From positions 4,094,001-4,158,000 of the forward strand of contig NZ_CP028923.1 of the NCBI RefSeq assembly GCF_005166025.1: DNA of 64,000 bases. The letters are read 5' to 3'. The position numbers and the translations under genes were made by a program. Origin of the DNA: Mangrovivirga cuniculi. Lineage in GTDB: Bacteria; Bacteroidota; Bacteroidia; Cytophagales; Cyclobacteriaceae. Positions 6,001 through 55,824 of the stretch are shown one piece after another. The notes beneath the pieces were generated by a model, which saw only the letters and a program-made list of their open reading frames with translations, was not told where the DNA came from and did no database searches. The stretch's first letter is position 1, and each line of letters begins with the position of its first letter.

Positions 6001-9000
6001 TACCATGCATCAAATGAAAAAAGAGATTGGAATTGTTGGTAAAGGACTACTGTTTCTTTTTTATCAGATTGATCAAACTGATCAGAAAAATTCATATTCA
6101 CCCATAAATCCTTTCCGCCAGTATTTTCTACATCAACATATCTCAAAGTGTCGTTGTTGAAGTAAACTTTCTGATATATTTCAGTAGGACTGACTTCAAT
6201 TTTCTCATCATCGAACAACTCAATTTTCGCTGTATGACTTAATGAAGGTTTATTACCTGAAAGCATAAAAATATCCTTATAGAATACTCCTGAAGTTGCA
6301 TTTTCGGTATTGATTTTACCTGTTACTAATGCTTCCTCTCCTGGATTAATACTAGCAGGGAATTCAAAGTCTAGAAATGAATAATCAGAGGTTCTATATC
6401 CTCCATACACATTAATATAATTATCAATATCTACATATCCATCGCCATTATAAGTACTCGTGAGATAGAGTTTACTTACACCAAAAAAGGTTTGTAATTT
6501 TGCAACAACTTTACCGTTAATTAAAAGTTTTTGAAAGGACCCTTCAAAATTAGTCACAGCTAATTCAAAATACTCCCCTGGCACAAAAGCATTAGGTATA
6601 GTTATAGTTTCTGCCTGATAGTTGTCATACAAATAGTAAAATTCTAAACTCCCATCTGAAGGATCAAAATATGCATATGCACCTGGCCAATTATCATCAA
6701 CAAACTCAACAGACCAGGGATTATCGCCCACAATTCTCATATTAATCTTAACCATAGTAGGATTAGCATAAACATAAGGATTTAACTCATTTAATGGCAT
6801 CCTGTATTGGTCATATTCCGACAGTTCAAATACTCTTAAATGCTTTTCTCCTTCAAAAGGGTGCTCATCGGAGACTATAGCTTTCCCGGAATTATAAATT
6901 TCAATAGGAGTAGTTTCATCCAGACTTAATTTTTCAAAGCCATTAGAATAAAATACTTTTTCGTCCCCAAAGCCATATCCTCCGGGCTGGTGAATAACGG
7001 ATGGCTTTGCAGGCAATTCTCCAATATTTTTTACTCCAAAAGAAAATTCTTTATCCACGCCTTTATTAACAGAAATTGAGGATTTTTCAGATAAAACAAC
7101 CAATTCCGGCCCTAATACTTTAACATCAAAAAATAAGGTATCCACATTATCTACAGGTTCATTCGTTTCAAACCTAACACCATAATTATAAGTACCCCTG
7201 GGCACTCCCCTGGCATCGATTTTCATTCGTACCTGGTCTTCTGTATTGACAGGAGTTTCTCCGGTAATATTAACAATCGTATTGATCGGATATCCATCGC
7301 CCTGGGGTCCTACGAGAGATAATTTGTAGGTTAGCTTAACGTTTCCAGTATTTTTAAAATCAAACCGAAACTCATCAATAGTTGAATTATCGATCACTAC
7401 ATCTTCGTAGAAATCATTTAAAGTTAGAATAGGTGCAGAAAGAACATTCCCGGACACAATTATCTCCTTGACCGGATCATTTTCATCATTCGAATAGATC
7501 ATTAACTTTTCAGAAAAAGGACCCGAAGCATTTGGAATGAATTCAAAATTTATTTCAGTTCTAAAAAACGAACGAAGAGGTGACTTATTAAATTTAATTT
7601 TTTTAAAAACTCCAGATTCAGACTCTATCTTTGAAATATTCAGTTGTTCAAGTCCAAGATTACCAACGACTAAACTTATGGGTTTTGATGTACCAAAATA
7701 GATATCCTCCAAAATCAATTCTTCAAACTGAAAACTTAAAATGGCACCTCTGTTGACACTAGCTTTAAATCCTTTTTGCGCATTTAACCGTCCCCAACCC
7801 AGTGAACCAACAAAATCAGGATTTCTGGCATCAATATTATCAGCGGAAGAATACATTAAAGCTTTCACCTTTTCGGGCGTAAATCCCTGTTTTCCAAATG
7901 CAGAGACCATTAGGGCAGCTACTCCGGAAACATGAGGACATGACATGGAAGTCCCGGAAGAATAAGCGTAACTATTATTTATATATGTGCTTGCAATACT
8001 CACCCCGGGGGCCGAAATATCCACCCAATCGCCGTAATTGGAAAAACCTGCACGTTTATCTTCATTATCTGTTGCTGCCACGGCAATCACCTGGTCGAGA
8101 TATGAAGGAAAAATTCGTTCTTTAGTATTGCTATTACCTGCAGAAAACATCACCAAACCACCTGCCATTGGGCCAACCTGATTACCAAACTCATCCTTAC
8201 CTGCTTCATTGATGAAGTAATTAATAGCTACTTCATAAGAAGGCAAATAAATATTTGGGGTTCTGAAACTCCATGAATTCTGTGCAATAACGGCGCCGTT
8301 ATCAGCAGCATAAATAAAACTCTCCTGAAATCCGCCATTACCATTTGGACTAAATGTAGCACAAGACATTAATTGGACACCAGGCTTATCTCCTGATCCC
8401 CCGGCAAGTCCGGCCACTCCTATTCCATTGTTGCTTGATGCACCAACTGTTCCGCCTACATGTGTTCCATGACCATCTGGTGTGTAGTCACCCTTTCTCT
8501 CTCCAAAACCATAGCCGTTGTAATCATCTTTGTAACCATTATTATCATCATCAATTCCATTATTGGGAATTTCATCCTCGTTAACCCAAAGATTTTGCTT
8601 TAAATCCGGATGAGTTTTTTCAATACCTCCATCAATCACTGCCACTATAACTGCTTTATTTCCTGTATTTTGTTTCCATGTAGGCAAAATACCCACATCT
8701 CCACCATCATTCATAGTGGTATTTTCAAAAGAATATTGAAGATGAAATAAGGGATCGTTTGTCCCCTGTGGTAATGTGCCAGCTTCAGAATAATCTATTA
8801 AAGATTCAACAGGTTCTTCATAGTCTGGTATCATTACCGGTTCGGCAATTTCAACGTACTCCAGACCTTCATAACTTTTAACTACATCTTCAATCGATGC
8901 TCCTTCATCAATCCTGAGAGTAAACCATTGATGAAGTCCATATTTTCTGTGTTTTTGATCAAAACGTGGATTGAAGGGAAACAACCGTGTTATTTTTTGG

Positions 9001-9233
9001 CAAGAATATTCTGATGATAACTTATCAATTTCCGGATTCCCGGTCTGAACTACGGTTTCGGACATATTTCTCAGCGTTTCATTGAGCTGGCTTGCTACCT
9101 CTTCAGTAACTTTTATAGTCACCATTCCGGTTTTACAATGCTGCTGAGCAGATAAATTTAAATTGAATACTAATAGAATAATTAACAGGTAGAGTGATTT
9201 GGCTTCAACTCCTGGCAGGGTAAAGTTTTTCAT
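3096..9233 (-). CDS. Secreted subtilisin-like (S8) protease, multidomain, with T9SS sorting domain
   Basis: 2045-residue exported protease. Residues 1-29 are a signal peptide ending in LSAQQ; about 30-150 look like a propeptide. The S8 catalytic domain carries D201 (VIVAVIDGG), H255 (DGHGTHVGG), oxyanion N319 (AQNSW) and S429 (SSGTSMSCPHVSG), plus the Ca-site-like NGIDDDNNGYKDD stretch. Then come repeated Hydin/ASPM-like and LamG-like beta modules, an F5/8C (discoidin) domain about 1588-1723, a bacterial Ig-like domain, a second discoidin domain about 1824-1948, and a type A T9SS sorting domain (AYPNPPQDVV to the end). It should be secreted through T9SS and act on proteins outside the cell, the discoidin domains possibly binding glycans. 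It lies 46 bp downstream of a same-strand partner sharing the C-terminal module, probably in one operon. Confidence 0.93.
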   Translation of the reverse strand: MKNFTLPGVEAKSLYLLIILLVFNLNLSAQQHCKTGMVTIKVTEEVASQLNETLRNMSETVVQTGNPEIDKLSSEYSCQKITRLFPFNPRFDQKHRKYGLHQWFTLRIDEGASIEDVVKSYEGLEYVEIAEPVMIPDYEEPVESLIDYSEAGTLPQGTNDPLFHLQYSFENTTMNDGGDVGILPTWKQNTGNKAVIVAVIDGGIEKTHPDLKQNLWVNEDEIPNNGIDDDNNGYKDDYNGYGFGERKGDYTPDGHGTHVGGTVGASSNNGIGVAGLAGGSGDKPGVQLMSCATFSPNGNGGFQESFIYAADNGAVIAQNSWSFRTPNIYLPSYEVAINYFINEAGKDEFGNQVGPMAGGLVMFSAGNSNTKERIFPSYLDQVIAVAATDNEDKRAGFSNYGDWVDISAPGVSIASTYINNSYAYSSGTSMSCPHVSGVAALMVSAFGKQGFTPEKVKALMYSSADNIDARNPDFVGSLGWGRLNAQKGFKASVNRGAILSFQFEELILEDIYFGTSKPISLVVGNLGLEQLNISKIESESGVFKKIKFNKSPLRSFFRTEINFEFIPNASGPFSEKLMIYSNDENDPVKEIIVSGNVLSAPILTLNDFYEDVVIDNSTIDEFRFDFKNTGNVKLTYKLSLVGPQGDGYPINTIVNITGETPVNTEDQVRMKIDARGVPRGTYNYGVRFETNEPVDNVDTLFFDVKVLGPELVVLSEKSSISVNKGVDKEFSFGVKNIGELPAKPSVIHQPGGYGFGDEKVFYSNGFEKLSLDETTPIEIYNSGKAIVSDEHPFEGEKHLRVFELSEYDQYRMPLNELNPYVYANPTMVKINMRIVGDNPWSVEFVDDNWPGAYAYFDPSDGSLEFYYLYDNYQAETITIPNAFVPGEYFELAVTNFEGSFQKLLINGKVVAKLQTFFGVSKLYLTSTYNGDGYVDIDNYINVYGGYRTSDYSFLDFEFPASINPGEEALVTGKINTENATSGVFYKDIFMLSGNKPSLSHTAKIELFDDEKIEVSPTEIYQKVYFNNDTLRYVDVENTGGKDLWVNMNFSDQFDQSDKKETVVLYQQFQSLFSFDAWYFIDNSGSGIVWGTQSDHGQEIPDNLKCIEFSYGSGLWYSDIIEGAVGDLDTEVISPEVIVNTNEVTVSYLTTHGNGLGGNVMDLDISYDNGQTWNNVLRWDDYRVRHECERVEVDLKPILGEERKFKLRWHSYGIGYASEGYLDEIKIVAKESALVSNNSGGVFLPIGAIKTFPLSINSTDVKDGDYLVKSEVITSGEEFSQNFDLNIEVLGPGIPIIDQSYFDFSIGHGTDVSQQVIITNKGQSPVKLDFEYNLPPEAKLNFKEEILSEDFDDLETGAIKQKHEIIANDRVIIDNIDPYTPNNHLVMKATGSIRSEVYPTIEYPTDSVSSFSMFIKTDLINYAWYLSTNNNNSRIFTEDIEFGSRSLSIDNEKLLEYGDEKGYKHIVLTYNKTTKENKIYYNGKLIKTILDYRQPIFYFNFANRYLIEDTDEAKIDNIELINGKPKFPIVRSETQILNLNPGESKPVNLIVDAGRLNIGEFNEILKASYMGYELESLDINFDFEVIDEPCKINSKTNQTMTGNVSASSFASEWQIANRAADGLPYTKWHSTFDTEQYYDVDLGKVNMIDSVRILWDYNYASSFDILVRSSKSEEWTKWYSKINNTEQLTELSLTQINARYVRLKLNSPATVFGYSLFEFELFGGCAEGDPILTTIDITPEYYSLAPGEELQYQFTAKDQFGKEYIPSNATWGASGNVNIDSETGVLTGLMDGEYEVTLTADGITKSVAGSVVSNGCSVSLVGSLSLNKPSVASSEESLIFEAEMANDGNLKSDWRSKFADNQWWYVELGDTYNIHEINIDWGVNFATWYELQYRDSDGIWRVFYKDLSADGGNDQIDFDGSVSTDAIRLWSFTRSGPWGFNINEIEVYGVCTPSTESASMMNMAVLAYPNPPQDVVNLKVNNNKDGLWTVELYDSQYNSYGSSEVMLNSDDFAELPFKFGGLYRGTYFLKLTDYDGEVTVLKILKE

Positions 9234-9279
9234 GGCAGATAATTATGGGACCTTATACTTAACTATGTAATTATATTGA

Positions 9280-12200
9280 CTATTCCTTAACCAGTTTTAT
9301 ACTACTGGTATCCCCGTTTTCACTTACCAATTTTAATATGTAAACTCCAACCGGAAGTGCAGATAAATTATAGGGAAGATCAACGGGATCAAATCCTAGC
9401 TCAATTTCACTACTAAAATACAAATTAAAATTACTATCGTACAATTTTAACGTGTATTTTTCCTGCCTTTCCGTGCTTAATTTCAATTTTAAACTTTGAA
9501 TGATCGGGTTCGGGTATGCAAACACGCTTGTAGATATTGATTCGTTTGTGCTTTCCTGATCTGAACAGCTACCATAAACCTGAAATTCGTGAATTGAAAA
9601 TCCATACTCAGTATTTCTTTCGAATCCCCACAAACGTATAGCATCTGTCTGAATATTGCCTTCAAATTTAAGTTGTTCTGTTCCTCCATTTGCGTTCATA
9701 TTCTGATAAAACACATTCCATTTACCAGTCTTATCTCTGTATTGCAATTCATAAGAACTGGCAGCACTGTAATTCCAGTCAATATTAATCCCGAGTATTT
9801 TGTATACTTCGTTCAACTCAATATAATACCACTGATTATCTTTAAAATGGCTGGACCATCGGGAATTAAAGTTTCCATCATTCGCTTTGCTGGCCTGGAA
9901 GACCGGATTCTCCCAGCTGGAACCATAAGAAGGTTTGTTTAGAGCTAGATTAATAGTTGGATCTATATTACAATCTCCTGGTTTAACAAAGCCGGTTCGT
10001 TCCAGAGTAAGATTGTTGAATTGATAATAAACAGTAAAGACACCTGGTGATAAAGCGGTTAATATTCCGTTTTCATCGACAAATACATTTTCACCATCTA
10101 TACTCCACTCTCCATCAGGCATTTCAATCACCGTAAAGTCACTTCTGTAGATGTAGGCTTCCAATGCTAACTTTTCACCTACTTCCATATATAGTGAATA
10201 GGGAATTATATTTCCCCCAGCAGGTAATACCGGCTGATTCACACAACTACCATAGATTTCTAATTCTTTAATAGAATATCCATATGTTGTAAATGGTACT
10301 CGACAAACAATCTTAAGATATCTTACAGATATACTTTTAAATAATAATAAGTTATAAACCGCTTCATTATTCAGTGAGCTATAAATGAGTCCCCAATCAT
10401 CTTGTTCATTTATCTTAGAATAAATGGCATAACTCCTGGCCCTTGCGTAATCCCAATAAATTTTCATTTCATCTAACCCCACTACATTCTGCAAGTCTAA
10501 TAAAATTTCAGCCTGATCTTCAGAAGTGGACCATCGAGAGTGGGGATTCCCATCAATCATTCGATCTGCCTGCCACCAGGAAGCAGCACTTGAACTCGTG
10601 TTTATATTACTGGAAATACTTAAGTTTTGATTAGTGAAAGAGCATGCATTAAATTGTGCATTTGAGTAAATAGTTGTTCTTGCTACATTTTTCAATGTAT
10701 CATTTCCAATAATTTCATCTAAAAAAACTTTAGTATACTGAACACCGGGTATTGCTCTCCAATTAGCTTGTAATTCATTAATAATATTACTTTCTGCAGC
10801 TGAGTGAACTAATTCACCCGTTTGTATCAAAAGTGGATATCTGTCTTTAAAAATGTATATCTTTTGATTATTGAATGGTGCTATGGAATTAATATTCCTG
10901 TAAATATAATTTTCCCCATCCATGCTTTCCAATCCAACCGTTTTACGTATACCTGGAGTATTATCAAAGTCTCCTTCTTTTTCGATTAAAAGGTCACCAT
11001 TTTTTAAAATCAACAGCTTGCAAGAAAACAAAGCATCATCAAAACGCGATTTGAAATTATGAAAATACAACGCAGCAATTCTCTCACCCTGTATTAAGAC
11101 TTCATCGTAAAATATACCTGATAATTCATCTTCCTTATTAAACCTTATTTCTCCAACGAAAGGGACGATTAGACCATTAGGTTCACCAACGTCGCCGGGT
11201 TCAAAATCATACGGAGGATAATATTGAGAAGAAGGGGGTAGGTATCTGGCTAAATATCCATACTCACTTAAAGCCATATCTTTGAGATACGTTTCCCCAT
11301 CAAAAAAACTAAACTTGAAAGTACTATCAGGCCTATTGTTATAAGCTAAAATATCTCCAAATCGAGCCACTCCACCTCCAAGAGGTGTATAAAAACCAGG
11401 AAATGAAAGTTTATTTTCTGGTTTGATAATATCTGGAAACTTAAAGTTATAAGAAATGATTTCCCAGTTACCATTTTGCTTATCCAGAGTAATATCTTCA
11501 TACTCAAAAGAAGCATAGATACTATTATTAGAAACAAACTTATCCTTATCTATCAAATCATAACTGGATGGTGCAGTTTTAATAATAAAATCCCTTTCTT
11601 TAGTATCTGAATTAATAATCTTTACATCAATTGAGCTAAGATCATTACTTCCAACTGTCCAGGTAGCAATGGGGTCAGATTCTAATTTAACTTTGTTAGA
11701 TAACACGGTTGCAAATATGGGAACCTTGTATAATTCCTCATTACTTTTAGAAATTATAACATTGGTATTATACTGACCTTCACTTAAATTTATTCTTGGA
11801 TAAAAATCAATTGTTACTTCTTCATTCGGTTCAAGTGTTATTTGATCTATTTCCGGAACTAAAATGTTAGTAGGCTCATATTTAAAAGTTCTTGATAAAT
11901 CAGTAAAAGTAACAGTTTCCTCATATGGACATTCTGGACCGACAATATTAATCATATGCGTTGATTTACCATCAAGAGATTCCATTCCGGTAAATAAACC
12001 TACTGCATTACATGGTGGGTAATATTCTAACAATTTATAATTAAAAGAAATGTCTCCGTTACTCTCGATCTTTATTTGATAAATTGAACGGTTATTTCGT
12101 GATATCCAGGTTCTGAAATTAAATTGAAGAATAACAAAGTTTTCATATTCTTTATAAAATACAATCTCAATCTCAGGAACGACTGATAGAATGGGAAATA

Positions 12201-21459: not shown

Positions 21460-22979
21460 ATGTCAGATATCCCGACGATATTATTTCCCTTATGGATACT
21501 CATTGCAGGATTTGTGTTCTGCATACTGTTCTGGAATCTTTATAAAATTCAGATTGGGATTGCAATTACTGCTATCACATTGTTTTTTGTTTCCGCCATA
21601 GCCTTATTGGTAGACGTTTATAAAAACGGAATCCAGGTAGTACAGATCGGCGGTTGGCCGGCTCCTTATGGCATCACCCTGGTGGCAGATATGCTGGCCG
21701 CAATTATGGTGCTTATTTCAGCGATCATTGCCTTTGCAATTGCCTTCTATTCTACCCAGGAAATATCTAAAAGACGAAAGAAATTTGGTTTCTACCCCGT
21801 ATTGATCGCAATGATGTTTGGTGTTTGCGGTTCTTTTCTTACCGGTGACATATTCAACCTTTATGTTTGGTTTGAGGTGATGCTGGTATCCTCTTTTGTA
21901 TTGATCGTGCTGGGAAATAAAAAGGCACAACTCGAGGGCGCAGTTAAATATGTGATACTCAGTTTTATTTCATCAGGATTCTTATTGACCGGGGTGGGTA
22001 TTTTATACCGATTAACCGGTGCCTTAAATATGGCCGAGCTGGCAACCATTATTCCCAATCATCCGGACAAAGGTCTGATCACGGTGGCCGGAGTATTCTT
22101 TTTTATGGGTTTTGGTATTAAAGCAGCGTTATTTCCGCTGTTTTCATGGTTGCCTGCCTCCTATCCGACTCCACCCATGTCGATTGCCGGACTAATGGCC
22201 GGGTTGCTTACCAAAGTGGGTGTATATGCGCTGATTCGCTTTTTACCCTACTTTATACTTATGATATTCCGCTTACCCATACCTTCTTGCTGGTGGTGTC
22301 CGGATTGACTATGTTTTTTGGAGTAATGGGAGCGATTGCACAAAACGACATTCGAAAAGTGCTGTCATTTCACATCGTCAGTCAGATCGGATATATGGTG
22401 ATGGGACTGGCCCTGTTTACTCCACTGGCATTGGCGGGATCAATATTTTATATCATTCACCATATACTGGTAAAAACCAACCTGTTTTTAATCAGTGGAA
22501 TTATAAAAGAGACCAACGGATATTATAAGCTCAAAAAGCTGGGCAGCGTGTATAATTTATTCCCGTTTGTGACCTTATTGTTTGTGATCTCTGCGTTTTC
22601 CCTTGCCGGAATTCCTCCCCTTTCAGGGTTTTGGGGTAAATTTATTCTGGCAAAAGCCGGTTTGGAACTGGAGCAATATTTCATCGTAGCGGTCTCCTTA
22701 TTAGTGGGATTTCTGACATTATTTTCCATGTCAAAAATATGGCGATCAGTCTTCTGGTCTCCGGCCCCTGCTAAATATAAAAAAGAAATCAGGTACGACG
22801 GCAGGTCATTATTCAAGTCAAAATATGCGATGATCCTGTCTTCTGCTTTCCTGGCCGCCTTTACGCTTTTGCTTAGCTTTTTTCCCGATCTGCTCAGCAC
22901 ATTTTCACAAGAAGCTGCCGAGCAGTTGCTGAATCCTTCAATTTATGTTGATGCTGTGTTAAAAACGAATTATAAATAA
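21460..22979 (+). pseudogene. mrpD: Mrp antiporter subunit D, interrupted by a 1-base frameshift
   Basis: NuoN-like proton-channel subunit, about 506 residues when repaired. Frame 1 (21460-22308) holds the N-terminal half: WPAPYGITLVADMLAAIMVLISA, GDIFNLYVWFEVMLVSSFVLIVLG, KAALFPLFSWLPASYPTPPMSIAGLMAGLLTKVGVYALIR. One extra T in the T5 run at 22240-22244 joins it to FFTLLYTYDIPLTHTFLLVVSGLTMFFGVMGAIAQNDIRKVLSFHIVSQIGYMVMGLALF and the rest, ending at 22979. Both halves are well conserved with no other damage, so a base-calling error is the simplest explanation. Confidence 0.88.
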
Positions 22980-25294: not shown

Positions 25295-25324
25295 ATGATA
25301 TAACAAGAAAAAGTTGGAGTTAGG

Positions 25325-25351
25325 AGGAAGCGGTAACGCTTCCTTTTTTTA
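25325..25351 (+). terminator. Terminator of the thioredoxin gene
   Basis: AGGAAGCG, loop GTAA, CGCTTCCT with seven or more T after it. Confidence 0.9.
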
Positions 25352-25504: not shown

Positions 25505-27478
25505 ATGAATAGAGCTTATTATTCAGATACAATAAACAATTTTCTAAATACTGATGATTCAAGTATTATTGGAGACCTTACAATTTCTCATAATCATTCG
25601 TTGGAGGACTTACAAAAAAATGCTTGGAGGCAACAAATATCAATTTTAAAATCAACCTTAAATAATTTATCTGGATTTGTATTCTTTGAATTTGCGATTC
25701 CGAGAATGGGGAAGCGAGTCGATAATGTAGTAATAATTAACGACTTAATTTTTGTAATTGAATTTAAGGTTGGTTCAACTACTTTTGATAATTATGCCAT
25801 TGAACAAGTCATTGATTATTCTTTGGATTTAAAAAATTTCCATGAAGGTAGTCATCATAGAAAACTAATTCCAATTTTAGTAGCGACTAATGGTCCAAAC
25901 TTAAAAACTGAATTCATAAAATTTGAGGATGATTTATATGAACCCTTATTAGCTACTGAAACTAATCTAAGAAAAACTATTGTAGAAGCTTTAATTAGAT
26001 CAAATGGAAATCTAGTTAATGGCTTTGATTGGGCAGATTCTTTATACAAACCAACGCCTACAATCATTGAAGCCGCCCAGGCTTTATATAAAGGCCATAA
26101 TGTAAAAGAAATTTCACGGTCTGATTCAGGTGCAAAAAACTTATCAATCACTGCTAATTGTATTTCTGACATTATCGATTATTCTAAAAATAATAGCAGA
26201 AAATCCATATGTTTTGTTACAGGTGTGCCAGGTGCCGGAAAAACTCTTGCTGGTCTTAATATCGCAAGTTTAAGAACTAAAATTGCTGAAGATGAACATG
26301 CTGTATTTCTATCTGGAAATGGTCCCCTTGTAGATGTCCTTAAGGAAGCCTTAGCTCGAGACAAAGTTTTAGAAGCAAAAGAATCTGGTGAAAGATTACT
26401 TAAGAAAAAAGCAGATTCTCAAGTGAAATCGTTTATTCAGAACATTCATCATTTTAGAGATGATGCATTAAGAACTAATGAACCTCCAATTGAAAAAGTT
26501 GCTGTTTTTGATGAGGCGCAAAGGGCTTGGACTAAAGAGCAAGCTTCAAAGTTTATGCAGCAGAAAAAAGGAAGAGCTAATTTTAATATGTCAGAACCTG
26601 AATTTTTGATTGAGGTTATGGATAGACATAAAGATTGGTGTACAATTATATGTTTAATTGGGGGCGGGCAAGAAATTAATACTGGCGAAGCTGGCTTAGA
26701 AGAATGGTTTAGAGCTTTTGAAAATAGATTTGATGAATGGGATTTATATTATTCATCAAAAATTGTTGAAGACAAAAATTATTTAAAAGACGATGTAGTC
26801 ATAAACCAAATTGATAAGCTCAATACTCAATCTAAAGATGAATTACATCTTGCGGTATCTGTAAGATCATTTCGTGCTGAGAAACTCTCTGATTTAATAC
26901 AATTAATCATTGATTTAGATATAAATAAAGCACAGAGTATTTATAGCTCACTCAAAAAGAACTATCCAATTGTCTTAACACGTGATTTTGAAAAAGCTAA
27001 AAATTGGTTAAAAAGCACTGCACGAGGAAGTGAGCGTTTTGGAGTTCTTGCTTCATCAGGCGCTTATAGATTAAGACCACACGGATTGAATGTCAAAGCA
27101 AAAATTAATGCTCCAGTATGGTTTTTAAATCCAAAAGATGATATTCGTTCCTCTTATTTTTTGGAAGAAGTTGCCACAGAGTTTGATATTCAAGGTTTAG
27201 AATTAGACTGGACGTGTATAGCTTGGGACATTGACTTCTATTTTAAAGATGGAAAATGGAATTACAAGAAATTTAAAGGCACCAAATGGCAAAATGTAAA
27301 TAGTCCAATAATGATTGAGTATTTAATAAATGCCTATCGGGTTTTACTTACAAGGGCACGACAAGGAATGGTTTTATTTATACCTCATGGTGACCCAGAA
27401 GATGAAACTAGAAATCCAGATTTATACGATTCTACATTTGAACTATTAAAAGAGATAGGATTTGAAGAGCTAGAATAA
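25505..27478 (+). CDS. PD-(D/E)XK nuclease fused to a DUF2075 (Schlafen-type) helicase/ATPase
   Basis: 657 residues. The N-terminal 120 residues fit a restriction-like nuclease: D73 (KRVDNVV), E86-x-K88 (FVIEFKVG) and Q101-x3-Y105 (EQVIDY), the D...ExK...QxxxY series of RecB-like nucleases. A superfamily 1 motor follows: Walker A GVPGAGKT (240-247), Walker B VFDEAQ (D336-Q339), a motif III-like GGGQEINTGEAG, motif V-like QGLELDWTCIAWD and motif VI YRVLLTRARQGM near the C-terminus, the DUF2075 pattern. It lies alone in an AT-rich stretch directly before the repeat-rich accessory region, with no methylase next to it. A phage-defence or DNA-processing role is inference; helicase-nuclease activity rests on the motifs. 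Confidence 0.85.
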   Translation: MNRAYYSDTINNFLNTDDSSIIGDLTISHNHSLEDLQKNAWRQQISILKSTLNNLSGFVFFEFAIPRMGKRVDNVVIINDLIFVIEFKVGSTTFDNYAIEQVIDYSLDLKNFHEGSHHRKLIPILVATNGPNLKTEFIKFEDDLYEPLLATETNLRKTIVEALIRSNGNLVNGFDWADSLYKPTPTIIEAAQALYKGHNVKEISRSDSGAKNLSITANCISDIIDYSKNNSRKSICFVTGVPGAGKTLAGLNIASLRTKIAEDEHAVFLSGNGPLVDVLKEALARDKVLEAKESGERLLKKKADSQVKSFIQNIHHFRDDALRTNEPPIEKVAVFDEAQRAWTKEQASKFMQQKKGRANFNMSEPEFLIEVMDRHKDWCTIICLIGGGQEINTGEAGLEEWFRAFENRFDEWDLYYSSKIVEDKNYLKDDVVINQIDKLNTQSKDELHLAVSVRSFRAEKLSDLIQLIIDLDINKAQSIYSSLKKNYPIVLTRDFEKAKNWLKSTARGSERFGVLASSGAYRLRPHGLNVKAKINAPVWFLNPKDDIRSSYFLEEVATEFDIQGLELDWTCIAWDIDFYFKDGKWNYKKFKGTKWQNVNSPIMIEYLINAYRVLLTRARQGMVLFIPHGDPEDETRNPDLYDSTFELLKEIGFEELE

Positions 27479-29258: not shown

Positions 29259-29275
29259 GAGTCGGGTAAATAATT

Positions 29276-29375
29276 GTCTGAATCAGGATTTACAGGATTA
29301 AAGGATGATAGGATGGTGTATAATCCTGTTAATGTTTTTTAAATCCGGATCAATCGTGGTTCACCACCTGACATT
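29276..29375. repeat. Palindromic interspersed repeat, copy A
   Basis: Begins GTCTGAATCAGGATT, runs through GGATTAAAGGATGATAGGAT and AATCCTGTTAAT, and ends ...AATCCGGATCAATCGTGGTTCA. The two ends are inverted relative to each other (TGAAtCAGGATT versus AATCnTGGTTCA). Related copies lie at 31279, 34679, 35966 and 36754. It sits directly upstream of the hipB operators. Confidence 0.7.
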
Positions 29376-29525
29376 AGTTCATTGTGTTTTACTTTCCACC
29401 ATAGTTGTTAATAAACGGTTTAAAAAGGGCCTAGATTAGCGTTAATGTTTGATTTTGAGCTTTTATACCCCCCAACTCAAATTAGACTATATTGAAAAGC
29501 ATATAAAAGAGTTTTAATGGATAAT

Positions 29526-29547
29526 ATTATATCTAATTGCATATAAT
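29526..29547. promoter_or_regulatory. HipB-type operator 1
   Basis: Palindrome ATTATAT-N8-ATATAAT, the same half-site spacing (N8) as the classic HipB operator TATCC-N8-GGATA. First of three copies at exact 40-bp intervals. Confidence 0.75.
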
Positions 29548-29565
29548 TTCAATCATATAGACACT

Positions 29566-29587
29566 ATTATATCTAATTACATATAAT
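29566..29587. promoter_or_regulatory. HipB-type operator 2
   Basis: Identical arms ATTATAT and ATATAAT around an 8-bp spacer that differs from operator 1 at one base. Confidence 0.75.
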
Positions 29588-29592
29588 TTATG

Positions 29593-29600
29593 TATATTTA
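29593..29600 (+). promoter_or_regulatory. -7-like box for hipB
   Basis: TATATTTA, one mismatch to TAnnTTTG, between operators 2 and 3, so operator binding would block it. The leader would be short (about 20 nt). Confidence 0.4.
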
Positions 29601-29605
29601 CCTGA

Positions 29606-29627
29606 ATTATATTTAATTACATATAAT
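29606..29627. promoter_or_regulatory. HipB-type operator 3, overlapping the hipB start codon
   Basis: ATTATAT-N8-ATATAAT; its last two bases are the first two of the hipB ATG (29626). Repressor bound here would cover the transcription start. Confidence 0.75.
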
Positions 29628-29835
29628 GCAGAATTTAGCAAAGTTTGTTAAAGAACGAAGAAAGGAAGTAAACCTGACTCAGGAAGAATTTGCTGAGCGG
29701 GCAGGAGTCGCACTCACTGTTATACGTAAAATCGAACAGGGTAAAACCAATCTGAATTTGGATAAGGTAAACCTGGTACTTCAGATGTTTGGACATGAAC
29801 TAGCACCTGTAAATAGTAAAAATCTAAATGAATGA
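29626..29835 (+). CDS. hipB: HipB-like XRE-family antitoxin/repressor
   Basis: 69-residue helix-turn-helix protein: VKERRKEVNLTQEEFAERAGVALTVIRKIEQGKTNLNLDKVNLVLQMFGHELAPV is a canonical HTH_3 domain. It should dimerise, bind the three palindromes upstream and repress its own operon, and contribute to toxin neutralisation. The stop overlaps the start of the next gene (ATGA). Confidence 0.9.
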   Translation: MQNLAKFVKERRKEVNLTQEEFAERAGVALTVIRKIEQGKTNLNLDKVNLVLQMFGHELAPVNSKNLNE

Positions 29836-30167
29836 GACAGGGCAAAGTATTTTATAAAGATTATTTAGCTGGTATCATTACAGAAACGGATGATGGTGAA
29901 TATGTATTTCAGTATGATGAAGAGTACGTAAAAGATCATCCAGATGAATTCATCACCTTTACAATGCCGGTAACAACAAAACCTTATACCGAAAAAAGAC
30001 TTTTTCCATTTTTTGAAGGATTGATTCCAGAAGGATGGTTATTAGAAATTGCTTCAGAAAACTGGAAAATTAATAAAAATGACCGTATGGGATTACTACT
30101 TGCTTGTTGTCAAAATTGTATTGGTGCAGTGAGTGTCAAACCTATTGAAGAGGAAGATGGAAAATAG
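29832..30167 (+). CDS. hipS: HipS-like protein (stand-alone HipA N-terminal subdomain)
   Basis: 111 residues matching only the Couple_hipA N-terminal subdomain 1: GKVFYKDYLAGIITETDDGEYVFQYDEEYV, FTMPVTTKPYTEKRLFPFFEGLIPEGWLLEIA, NDRMGLLLACCQNCIGAVSV. In classical HipA this is fused to the kinase core; here it is a separate gene overlapping the kinase by 11 bp. In the characterised E. coli HipBST system the equivalent free subdomain (HipS) is the antitoxin. The antitoxin role here is by analogy. Confidence 0.85.
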   Translation: MRQGKVFYKDYLAGIITETDDGEYVFQYDEEYVKDHPDEFITFTMPVTTKPYTEKRLFPFFEGLIPEGWLLEIASENWKINKNDRMGLLLACCQNCIGAVSVKPIEEEDGK

Positions 30168-31104
30168 ATGTTTATATTGTTACGAACCTATTAAAGACGA
30201 ACATGACTTTCATGAGAAATGTTCCATGGTATTCTTTGGAACACCAACTCCTCCGGAAATTGAATATTCCATTAATCAAATGGATGAACTTGCTAAAAAA
30301 GTAGTTGAACGAAGTGTAGCTGTTCCTGGTGTTCAGGCAAAACTGTCAATGTCCATCGTCAAAGAAACCAAAGGAAAATCTGACACAAGGTTAACTGTGG
30401 TTGGGGCATTGGATGGACAATATATATTTAAACCCCCTTCTGACAAATTTCCCGAAATGCCAGAAAACGTACATGTAACCATGCGAATTGCAGAATCTTT
30501 TGGAATCCGGGTAGTCCTATCATCATTGTGTCGATTAGCATCAGGAGAACTTTCATATATAACGAAACGAGTTGATCGAACAGATACTGGTTCTAAGATT
30601 CACATGCTCGATATGTTTCAAATCACAGAGGCATTTGATAAATACAAAAGTTCTATGGAGAAAGTTGGAAAAGCACTAGGTCAATATTCAAGCAACACGT
30701 TACTTGACAAAACTTTTTACTTTGATCTGGCTATTTTTTCTTTTTTAACCGGGAATAACGATATGCACCTGAAAAACTTCTCAATGATCGAAGGTCCTTC
30801 AGGACGGGTGTTATCCCCTGCTTATGATTTGTTAAATGTCGGTATAATCTTCCCGGAAGACACAGAAGAACTTGCGCTGACACTGGTTAGAAAGAAAAAA
30901 AAGCTTAAGAAGGAACACTTTGAAAAATTGGGGAATGAACTTGGATTGACTCCTAAACAGGTCAAAGGAAGCTTTAATAGAATGATAAAAAATAAATCAA
31001 AAGCATTCGAATGGATCAACCGATCATTCCTTTCAAAGGAAATGAAAACAGCCTATAAAGAATTACTAGAAAAAAGGTATACCCAATTGGGACTACAAGA
31101 ATAG
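30157..31104 (+). CDS. hipT: HipT/HipA-like Ser/Thr kinase toxin with N-terminal Cys/His motif
   Basis: 315 residues from ATG 30157 (MENRCLYCYEP), which overlaps the hipS stop; the frame upstream lies inside hipS. The core kinase is intact: Gly-rich-loop serine motif VQAKLS (59-64), catalytic NNDMHLKN (D202, N207) and metal-binding AYDLL (D224). The first 28 residues hold C5-x2-C8 and H19-x2-C22, a possible small zinc knuckle absent from E. coli HipA. HipA-type kinases phosphorylate aminoacyl-tRNA synthetases and halt growth; the target here is unknown. Lacks the N-terminal subdomain, which is supplied by the preceding gene. Confidence 0.88.
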   Translation: MENRCLYCYEPIKDEHDFHEKCSMVFFGTPTPPEIEYSINQMDELAKKVVERSVAVPGVQAKLSMSIVKETKGKSDTRLTVVGALDGQYIFKPPSDKFPEMPENVHVTMRIAESFGIRVVLSSLCRLASGELSYITKRVDRTDTGSKIHMLDMFQITEAFDKYKSSMEKVGKALGQYSSNTLLDKTFYFDLAIFSFLTGNNDMHLKNFSMIEGPSGRVLSPAYDLLNVGIIFPEDTEELALTLVRKKKKLKKEHFEKLGNELGLTPKQVKGSFNRMIKNKSKAFEWINRSFLSKEMKTAYKELLEKRYTQLGLQE

Positions 31105-54508: not shown

Positions 54509-54943
54509 ATGAAGCAAAAAGATGAGAACCAGTACGTTAAGCGAACACAAAAAGACTACAGTTACACTTTTAAATTATCAGTGGTCGAAGAGATAGAAAG
54601 AGGAGAGCTTGGCATAAGAGCCGCATCCAGGAAGTATGGAATACAATCTCACTCTACCATTACAAATTGGTTAAGAAAATATGGTACCTTTGATTGGTAC
54701 AACAAAACCCATTTAAACTTGTCAAAGAGCCCAGAACAGAAATTATTGGAGCTTGAACAAAAAGTCAAGCTCTTGGAGAAACAGAAAGCTTCATTGGAAA
54801 AGAAACTAGAGTTTACTGATAAAAAGGCTATTTTCTTTGATATGATGATCGATATTGCAGAAGAAGAGCTAAAGATTCCTATTAGAAAAAAGTACTCACC
54901 CGAACAATCGAACGATTCAAAGAACAGTACAAAGAAAGCTTAA
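54509..54943 (+). CDS. IS3-family transposase OrfA
   Basis: 144 residues. Helix-turn-helix for end binding (YSYTFKLSVVEEIERGELGIRAASRKYGIQSHSTITNWLRKYG) and a leucine-zipper-like coiled coil (QKLLELEQKVKLLEKQKASLEKKLEFTDKKAIFFDMMIDIAEEE). Contains the programmed frameshift site near its 3' end. Confidence 0.92.
   Translation: MKQKDENQYVKRTQKDYSYTFKLSVVEEIERGELGIRAASRKYGIQSHSTITNWLRKYGTFDWYNKTHLNLSKSPEQKLLELEQKVKLLEKQKASLEKKLEFTDKKAIFFDMMIDIAEEELKIPIRKKYSPEQSNDSKNSTKKA
54886..54892 (+). promoter_or_regulatory. Programmed -1 ribosomal frameshift site of the IS
   Basis: A_AAA_AAG in the orfA frame (codons AGA AAA AAG). Slipping back one base enters the frame of orfB, open from this point (VLTRTIERFKEQYKESLTATCRLFGKSRQ...), giving the OrfAB transposase. 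Confidence 0.85.
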
Positions 54944-55824
54944 CAGCTACCTGTAGATTGTTTGGGAAGAGTAGGCAGGTTTATTATCGAGCAAAGAAAT
55001 CTGAGGCTAAAAGAAGAGAAACAGCTTCTGTAGTAGTGAAAAAGGTTCAACAAGTACGGATGAGAATGTCTGAATTAGGCACAAGAAAGCTCTACGAAAA
55101 GCTTTATGATGAGCTTCGGGAACTTGGGGTTGGTAGAGACCGGTTGTTTGCCATTATGAAAGCTAATCACATGCAAATACTCCCAAAACGGCAATACCAC
55201 ATCACGACCGACTCCCATCATAGATTCAGAAAACATCGCAACTTGGTTGAGAACTTAACCCTTAATAGGCCCGAGCAGTTGTGGGTTAGTGATATTACCT
55301 ATATAGGGAACCGACAAAATCCAATGTATCTATCTCTGGTGACAGATGCTTATTCAAAGAAAATAATGGGGTTTAATGTATCTAACAGCCTCCATGCGCA
55401 AGGGGCAATCAAGGCATTAAAACAAGCGATTAAAAATAGAAAGTATTATGATCGAGAACTAATTCATCATTCAGACCGAGGTTTGCAATACTGTTGTGAT
55501 GATTACCAAAAGGAACTTGATAAAGGTAATCTGTTGTGTAGTATGACAGAAAAGTATGATCCCTACCAAAATGCTATTGCAGAACGAGTGAATGGTATTT
55601 TAAAGCAAGAATTTATTAAGGGCATACTGGTAAATGATATAGTTCTAATGAATAAATTGATCAAACAATCTATTGATATTTATAACAGAGAACGTCCTCA
55701 TTACAGCTGCTATATGAAGACTCCAGAATTTATGCATGGACAAGAAAAAATTAAAATAAGAACCTATAAAAAAATAGCACCGCAAAATTGTGCGATGCTA
55801 CTTAATTATTATTTATCCTTGTAA
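54892..55824 (+). CDS. IS3-family transposase OrfB (DDE integrase domain), expressed as OrfAB fusion
   Basis: Frame open from the slip site; a stand-alone TTG start at 54958 is less likely than frameshifting. rve/DDE catalytic residues: D in LWVSDITYIG, D in HHSDRGLQY, E in NAIAERVNGILKQEF, with the IS3-type K after E. C-terminal INRERPHYS-like YNRERPHYSCYMKTPEF. Complete and probably active. Confidence 0.92.
   Translation, partial: VLTRTIERFKEQYKESLTATCRLFGKSRQVYYRAKKSEAKRRETASVVVKKVQQVRMRMSELGTRKLYEKLYDELRELGVGRDRLFAIMKANHMQILPKRQYHITTDSHHRFRKHRNLVENLTLNRPEQLWVSDITYIGNRQNPMYLSLVTDAYSKKIMGFNVSNSLHAQGAIKALKQAIKNRKYYDRELIHHSDRGLQYCCDDYQKELDKGNLLCSMTEKYDPYQNAIAERVNGILKQEFIKGILVNDIVLMNKLIKQSIDIYNRERPHYSCYMKTPEFMHGQEKIKIRTYKKIAPQNCAMLLNYYLSL

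Follow-up and report, generated by a model that had tools for sequence, protein, structure and literature searches.

Among the described systems closest to the gene reported here, Nhi (SERP2475, nuclease-helicase immunity) combines nuclease and helicase in a single polypeptide; it nicks and unwinds DNA, and its activity depends on variation of the phage SSB (PMC12904381). Group III Schlafens (SLFN11, SLFN14) carry an N-terminal Schlafen core and a motor of the Pfam family PF09848, and McrC, Can2, NucC, SduA and Upx are defence nucleases of the PD-(D/E)XK fold. The PDC class goes back to the guilt-by-embedding work of Payne et al. (preprint 10.1101/2024.01.29.577857, cited in PMC12988326); our literature search found no paper that names PDC-S41, the family of interest here.

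We analysed a 64,000-nucleotide stretch of Mangrovivirga cuniculi DNA (the window), in which direct reading reveals an intact ORF of 657 aa with an ATG start at 25505-27478 on the forward strand. By profile, the encoded protein is a member of PDC-S41, which PADLOC already names as a candidate single-gene antiviral system: its residues 1-656 align with positions 1-653 of the 657 in profile PDLC05014 (E 1.6e-294, 976 bits), an end-to-end match with like length and domain order. The second PADLOC match of the protein is to Cas4_II only, weak and confined to residues 69-162, and a search of the 4.66-Mb genome recovered one full-length PDC-S41 member. The features referred to below are as follows.

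25505..27478, forward strand: PDC-S41-family single-protein nuclease-helicase, 657 aa (intact ORF; PADLOC PDLC05014 match; sole full-length copy in the genome)
25505..26059, forward strand: predicted PD-(D/E)XK nuclease domain, residues 1-185 (AlphaFold2 model with pLDDT 94.1; Can2, McrC and NucS folds; invariant D73, E86, K88, Q101 and Y105)
26090..27475, forward strand: SF1 helicase/translocase motor, residues about 196-657 (PF09848; UvrD, SLFN11 and SLFN14 folds; Walker A, DEAQ and motif VI)
25323..25349, forward strand: terminator-like hairpin after trxA, AGGAAGCG-GTAA-CGCTTCCT followed by a T run (direct sequence reading)

Domains of the PDC-S41 protein

The original prediction had read a nuclease set, D73...E86-x-K88...Q101xxxY105, ahead of a complete SF1 motor, and had proposed a fold comparison of the N-terminal region. 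An alignment of 70 sequences from several phyla, with 57-64% identity to the window protein, bears out all five nuclease residues, as R67-M68-G69, D73, E86-x-K88, G90, Q101 and Y105 are invariant across it. Residues 1-185 also fold confidently in an AlphaFold2 model (pLDDT 94.1, pTM 0.91), whose best matches among solved structures are Can2 (Z 9.0), McrC (8.2), NucS/EndoMS (8.0) and Upx (7.6), followed by Hjc (6.5), NucC (6.0) and SduA (5.8); almost all top matches are PD-(D/E)XK nucleases, and in a Foldseek search NucS of P. abyssi was the sole match below 1e-3. In PD-(D/E)XK nucleases the catalytic residues occupy characteristic places in the core, and the secondary structure of the model places D73 in core strand two, E86 and K88 in strand three and Q101 and Y105 in the helix after it, as expected for this superfamily. 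A sequence search against solved structures returned no convincing relative, its few weak matches being P-loop stretches or unrelated constructs. A Z score near 8 could by itself reflect a common arrangement of secondary structure elements; because the hits agree in family and the catalytic set is invariant, we regard the assignment of residues 1-185 to the PD-(D/E)XK nuclease fold, predicted from model and alignment, as strong. The protein thus has its nuclease fold in common with McrC, Can2, NucC, SduA and Upx (Z 5.8-9.0), but differs from these in having nuclease and SF1 motor in one chain, and neither a CARF (cyclic-nucleotide-binding) domain nor an McrB GTPase partner was found for it.

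The motor motifs are conserved as well. Pfam PF09848 (SLFN-g3_helicase), which we take to be the present name of DUF2075, matches residues 233-627 with 263 bits, in agreement with the Schlafen-type DUF2075 motor originally proposed. In the same 70-sequence alignment K246 of the Walker A motif GVPGAGKT (residues 240-247) and the DEAQ box (336-339) are invariant; Walker A as a whole, a motif III-like GGGQE (386-390), a motif V-like QGLE (563-566) and motif VI (YRVLLTRAR, 611-619) vary little if at all, upholding the claim of a complete SF1 motor. The full-length model (pLDDT 86.6) matches solved structures over residues about 181-657, with UvrD (Z 13.4), SLFN11 (13.1) and SLFN14 (12.9) and also HelD and Dda, while a Foldseek ranking of the whole model puts the RNA-acting motors SLFN14 and Upf1 on top.

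The protein has motor family and fold in common with group III Schlafens (Z 12.9-13.1), but where those have an N-terminal Schlafen core it has a predicted PD-(D/E)XK nuclease; it is not a true Schlafen, as the Pfam scan at E<=0.001 returned PF09848 and generic ATPase/helicase families only, with no Schlafen core. Nor does its N-terminal domain correspond to a Schlafen linker, since the SLFN11 and SLFN14 linkers were reached only at an rmsd of 9.5-10 in whole-model alignments; among the matches listed for the isolated domain there are PD-(D/E)XK nucleases and no SLFN, although absence from such a list is no proof. Akin to Nhi, the protein is a single chain joining nuclease to helicase (PMC12904381), yet it matches neither the PADLOC profile for Nhi (PDLC02372) nor that for AbiO (PDLC02350) at E<=0.1, and the Nhi profile gave weak matches at other loci of the genome only, with none at the PDC-S41 locus. 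A prophage relative of PDC-S41 does show weak Nhi and AbiO profile matches over its motor (E about 3e-7 and 2e-7, respectively). By sequence comparison, the motor is distantly related to those of Nhi, AbiO and the Schlafens, while by profile the protein is none of them. By analogy, PDC-S41 may plausibly work like Nhi, though it is no Nhi member by profile.

Site of the gene and spread of the family

The PDC-S41 gene starts 210 bp past trxA and is followed by a small lipoprotein gene. The hairpin after trxA, with a comparable one 3' of trxA in a genome of the same genus, suggests that transcription of the gene is separate from that of trxA; the hairpin is not among the terminators listed by a consensus scan. 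As originally noted, the gene is AT-rich: at 32.1% its GC content is the third lowest among the 42 ORFs of the window, with a GC3 z of -2.2 relative to these ORFs. G001, a genome of the same genus, has both sides of the site, that of trxA with 78% nucleotide identity and that of the lipoprotein gene with 83%, but not the PDC-S41 gene, which is therefore specific to this lineage. G001 does not offer a clean empty site, as its flanks lie about 7 kb apart with unrelated ordinary genes between them, leaving no exact insertion junction, and around the PDC-S41 gene itself the only boundary repeats are short and chance-like.

The PADLOC scan of the window found no methylase, as predicted, and no second defence gene except a HipA-like kinase and generic matches; the window copy is outside any defence island. 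The prediction had also placed the gene at the border of a repeat-rich accessory stretch with a toxin-antitoxin locus: a HipB-HipS-HipT-like set and repeats do exist, but the repeats are not specific to the PDC-S41 gene. The Hip-like set is tripartite (29626-31104, forward strand), with overlapping genes for an XRE protein of 69 aa, a HipA N-terminal domain protein of 111 aa (Couple_hipA) and a HipA_C kinase of 323 aa. Three 22-nt near-palindromic repeats with 40-nt spacing run up to the hipB start (29526-29627) and are likely operator sites, and a short dispersed repeat at about 29260-29380 has about 20 copies in the genome and is present in two genomes of the same genus. Elsewhere in the window, a Mrp-antiporter-like membrane subunit is split over two overlapping frames (21460-22979, forward strand), which suggests a frameshift or a sequencing error, and 54509-55824 (forward strand) holds the ORF pair of an IS3-type transposase.

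A genome scan recovered 331 relatives of the window protein, the best 80 of which come from Bacteroidota, Campylobacterota, Pseudomonadota isolates (Acinetobacter, Neisseria), Thermodesulfobacteriota, Planctomycetota, Acidobacteriota and candidate phyla. Within Bacteroidota the family is sporadic, with one copy each in 20 of 296 sampled genomes; only 4 of 59 near genomes, the organism's own included, have it, and it is absent from both same-genus genomes and from 33 of the 34 other genomes of the same family. The tree mixes phyla, and for Campylobacterota its well-supported branches require three label changes or more, though isolated cases that come from metagenome bins could reflect mis-binning. 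Two Persicobacter plasmids and one phage record carry copies, and relatives occur on nine viral contigs, five of them distant (29-30% identity) and on contigs of 44-65 kb. In one genus, green-sulphur-like as inferred from its gene content, the PDC-S41 gene and a small neighbouring gene form a 2.7-kb cassette with 78-80% identity from genome to genome, while the DNA farther out on either side does not align. Five copies (our loci L011, L016 and L036 and genomes G051 and G346) are broken. By its sequence, the family is thus widely but sporadically shared among bacteria, its antiviral role being a candidate one, and a distribution that is sporadic and cross-phylum, with plasmid, viral and sometimes broken copies, is what would be expected for a mobile defence gene, not for a repair enzyme.

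A fixed site is seen in Hymenobacter, where five copies (L008, L011, L031, L047 and L052) lie 28-56 nt 3' of the same prenyltransferase-like (menA-like) gene; because the L011 copy is interrupted, this site appears stable while the PDC-S41 gene is not always kept.

Neighbours and partners of relatives

The surroundings of homologues, which the original prediction had proposed to inspect, are not uniformly housekeeping. PADLOC matches, taken at 1e-10 and tallied by family without per-gene counts, include type I restriction-modification (R-M), R-M control proteins, AbiE and SoFic among the 280 genes within two places of relatives, and also type IV restriction, DRT, Gabija GajB and several other candidates. 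Matches among the 140 genes more than 8 kb from relatives are limited to R-M systems, one or two of them, and a few candidates; arbitrary stretches of related genomes, sampled with 118 genes, match only 12 families, mostly generic ATPase, sigma-54 or recombination-type. Defence genes thus appear enriched near PDC-S41 relatives in qualitative terms; the enrichment of near over far genes is modest, and the far flanks also lie above the background of arbitrary stretches.

Where the upstream DNA could be read, an XRE regulator of 68-92 aa abuts the PDC-S41 gene in 23 of 76 copies, ending between -8 and +8 nt from its start codon. In PADLOC these regulators match the control proteins of R-M systems (E 3e-24 in L030), an arrangement akin to an R-M unit with a C protein. 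Fifteen of the 23 belong to one Flavobacterium clade; the others are spread over further lineages, among them the family of the window's own organism (L081) and its order (L092), where the regulator lies just upstream of a more distant relative. Inspection of the DNA upstream of the window copy revealed no abutting controller; this copy has the domain content of the family but is solitary where many relatives have such a regulator.

Another partner is a MutT-like NUDIX domain. It forms the N-terminal part of the L121 protein (8125-10497; Pfam 69 bits) and, judged by uninterrupted reading frames, of the L057 (4541-6892) and L062 (9617-11938) proteins as well, while a convergent NUDIX gene is adjacent in L068, L072 and L077 and another lies close to the split, more remote relative in L093. 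This linkage, in seven loci only, led us to reject the idea that PDC-S07 and PDC-S41 form one system in general. The PADLOC profile for PDC-S07 (PDLC04899) has matches in E. coli and in half of the Bacteroidota genomes sampled, and it is probably not separable from housekeeping MutT/MutY. Other associations include a GreA/GreB C-terminal domain in L038 (10001-12706), ahead of a C-terminal extension common to L038, L033, L037, L055 and L066, and a small 'YRDxGNYK' protein beside several PDC-S41 copies. The associations with XRE controllers and NUDIX domains are the only new parts of this description, and neither applies to the window copy, which stands alone without an XRE or NUDIX partner. They raise the possibility, which we regard as tentative and rather improbable, that PDC-S41, instead of being a true single-gene system, is the effector of a regulated module whose level would be set by the R-M-type XRE controller, which in some lineages would be tied to the nucleotide pool by the fused or adjacent NUDIX domain, and which phage-altered nucleotides or replication intermediates would switch on.

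Proposed function

We consider it likely that the window gene is a stand-alone, horizontally acquired PDC-S41 defence gene encoding a motor-coupled nuclease that acts on invading DNA, because a predicted nuclease with its full catalytic set is fused to a complete SF1 motor, and because the family, though strongly conserved, is sporadic and mobile, with some copies broken. The motor would engage nucleic acid that is foreign or specific to phage, with DNA ends, forks or single-stranded regions as the likeliest sites, and translocate with ATP along the invading DNA, while the tethered metal-dependent nuclease would cut during translocation and so degrade the genome of the invader or intermediates of its replication. 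DNA as the substrate, as opposed to RNA, is inferred from the predicted PD-(D/E)XK fold. Because there is no methylase, self-protection would lie in substrate structure or in controlled expression; the latter is probably provided by the abutting XRE controller in about 30% of relatives, although the window copy is without one.

An accessory nuclease-helicase of DNA repair or recombination, protecting the organism's own chromosome in an AddAB- or Dna2-like role, would use the same kinds of domains, would account for the fold matches to NucS/EndoMS and Holliday-junction resolvases and would fit copies beside core genes, such as the menA-like gene in five Hymenobacter species. We nevertheless consider such a role unlikely in view of the absence of the gene from most close relatives, its spread across phyla, its plasmid, viral and broken copies and the R-M-type controllers. 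Plasmid-borne copies and those on a small number of viral contigs, together with a mobile cassette at different sites, could instead point to an element directed against plasmids or conjugation, or to mobile-element cargo that eliminates competitors, with phage restriction secondary or absent; as most copies are chromosomal and the recurrent neighbours of relatives revealed no link with conjugation genes, there is in our view little chance that this is the main role. An RNA-directed, Schlafen-like abortive effector, whose motor would sense aberrant RNA and whose nuclease would cleave RNA so that the infected cell stops growing, is suggested by the Schlafen group-3 motor and the top Foldseek ranks of SLFN14 and Upf1, but is very improbable given a PD-(D/E)XK nuclease in place of the Schlafen core RNase and a DNA motor, UvrD, that scores as high.

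The reading of the window gene as a candidate defence gene is thus supported by sequence and model, and neither the fold of the N-terminal region nor the neighbourhoods of homologues refutes it. The resemblance to compact, self-contained antiviral genes noted in the original prediction stands, with the qualifications that PADLOC had already listed the family as a candidate, that the window copy is outside any defence island and that some homologues lie beside a fixed core gene. The candidate family is present in about 7% of the sampled Bacteroidota genomes (20/296) and in several other phyla, and the XRE controllers and NUDIX partners of relatives provide specific hypotheses on how a methylase-free nuclease-helicase may spare its host. 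Intact, solitary and compact, the M. cuniculi copy would be a clean test case for whether PDC-S41 restricts phage.
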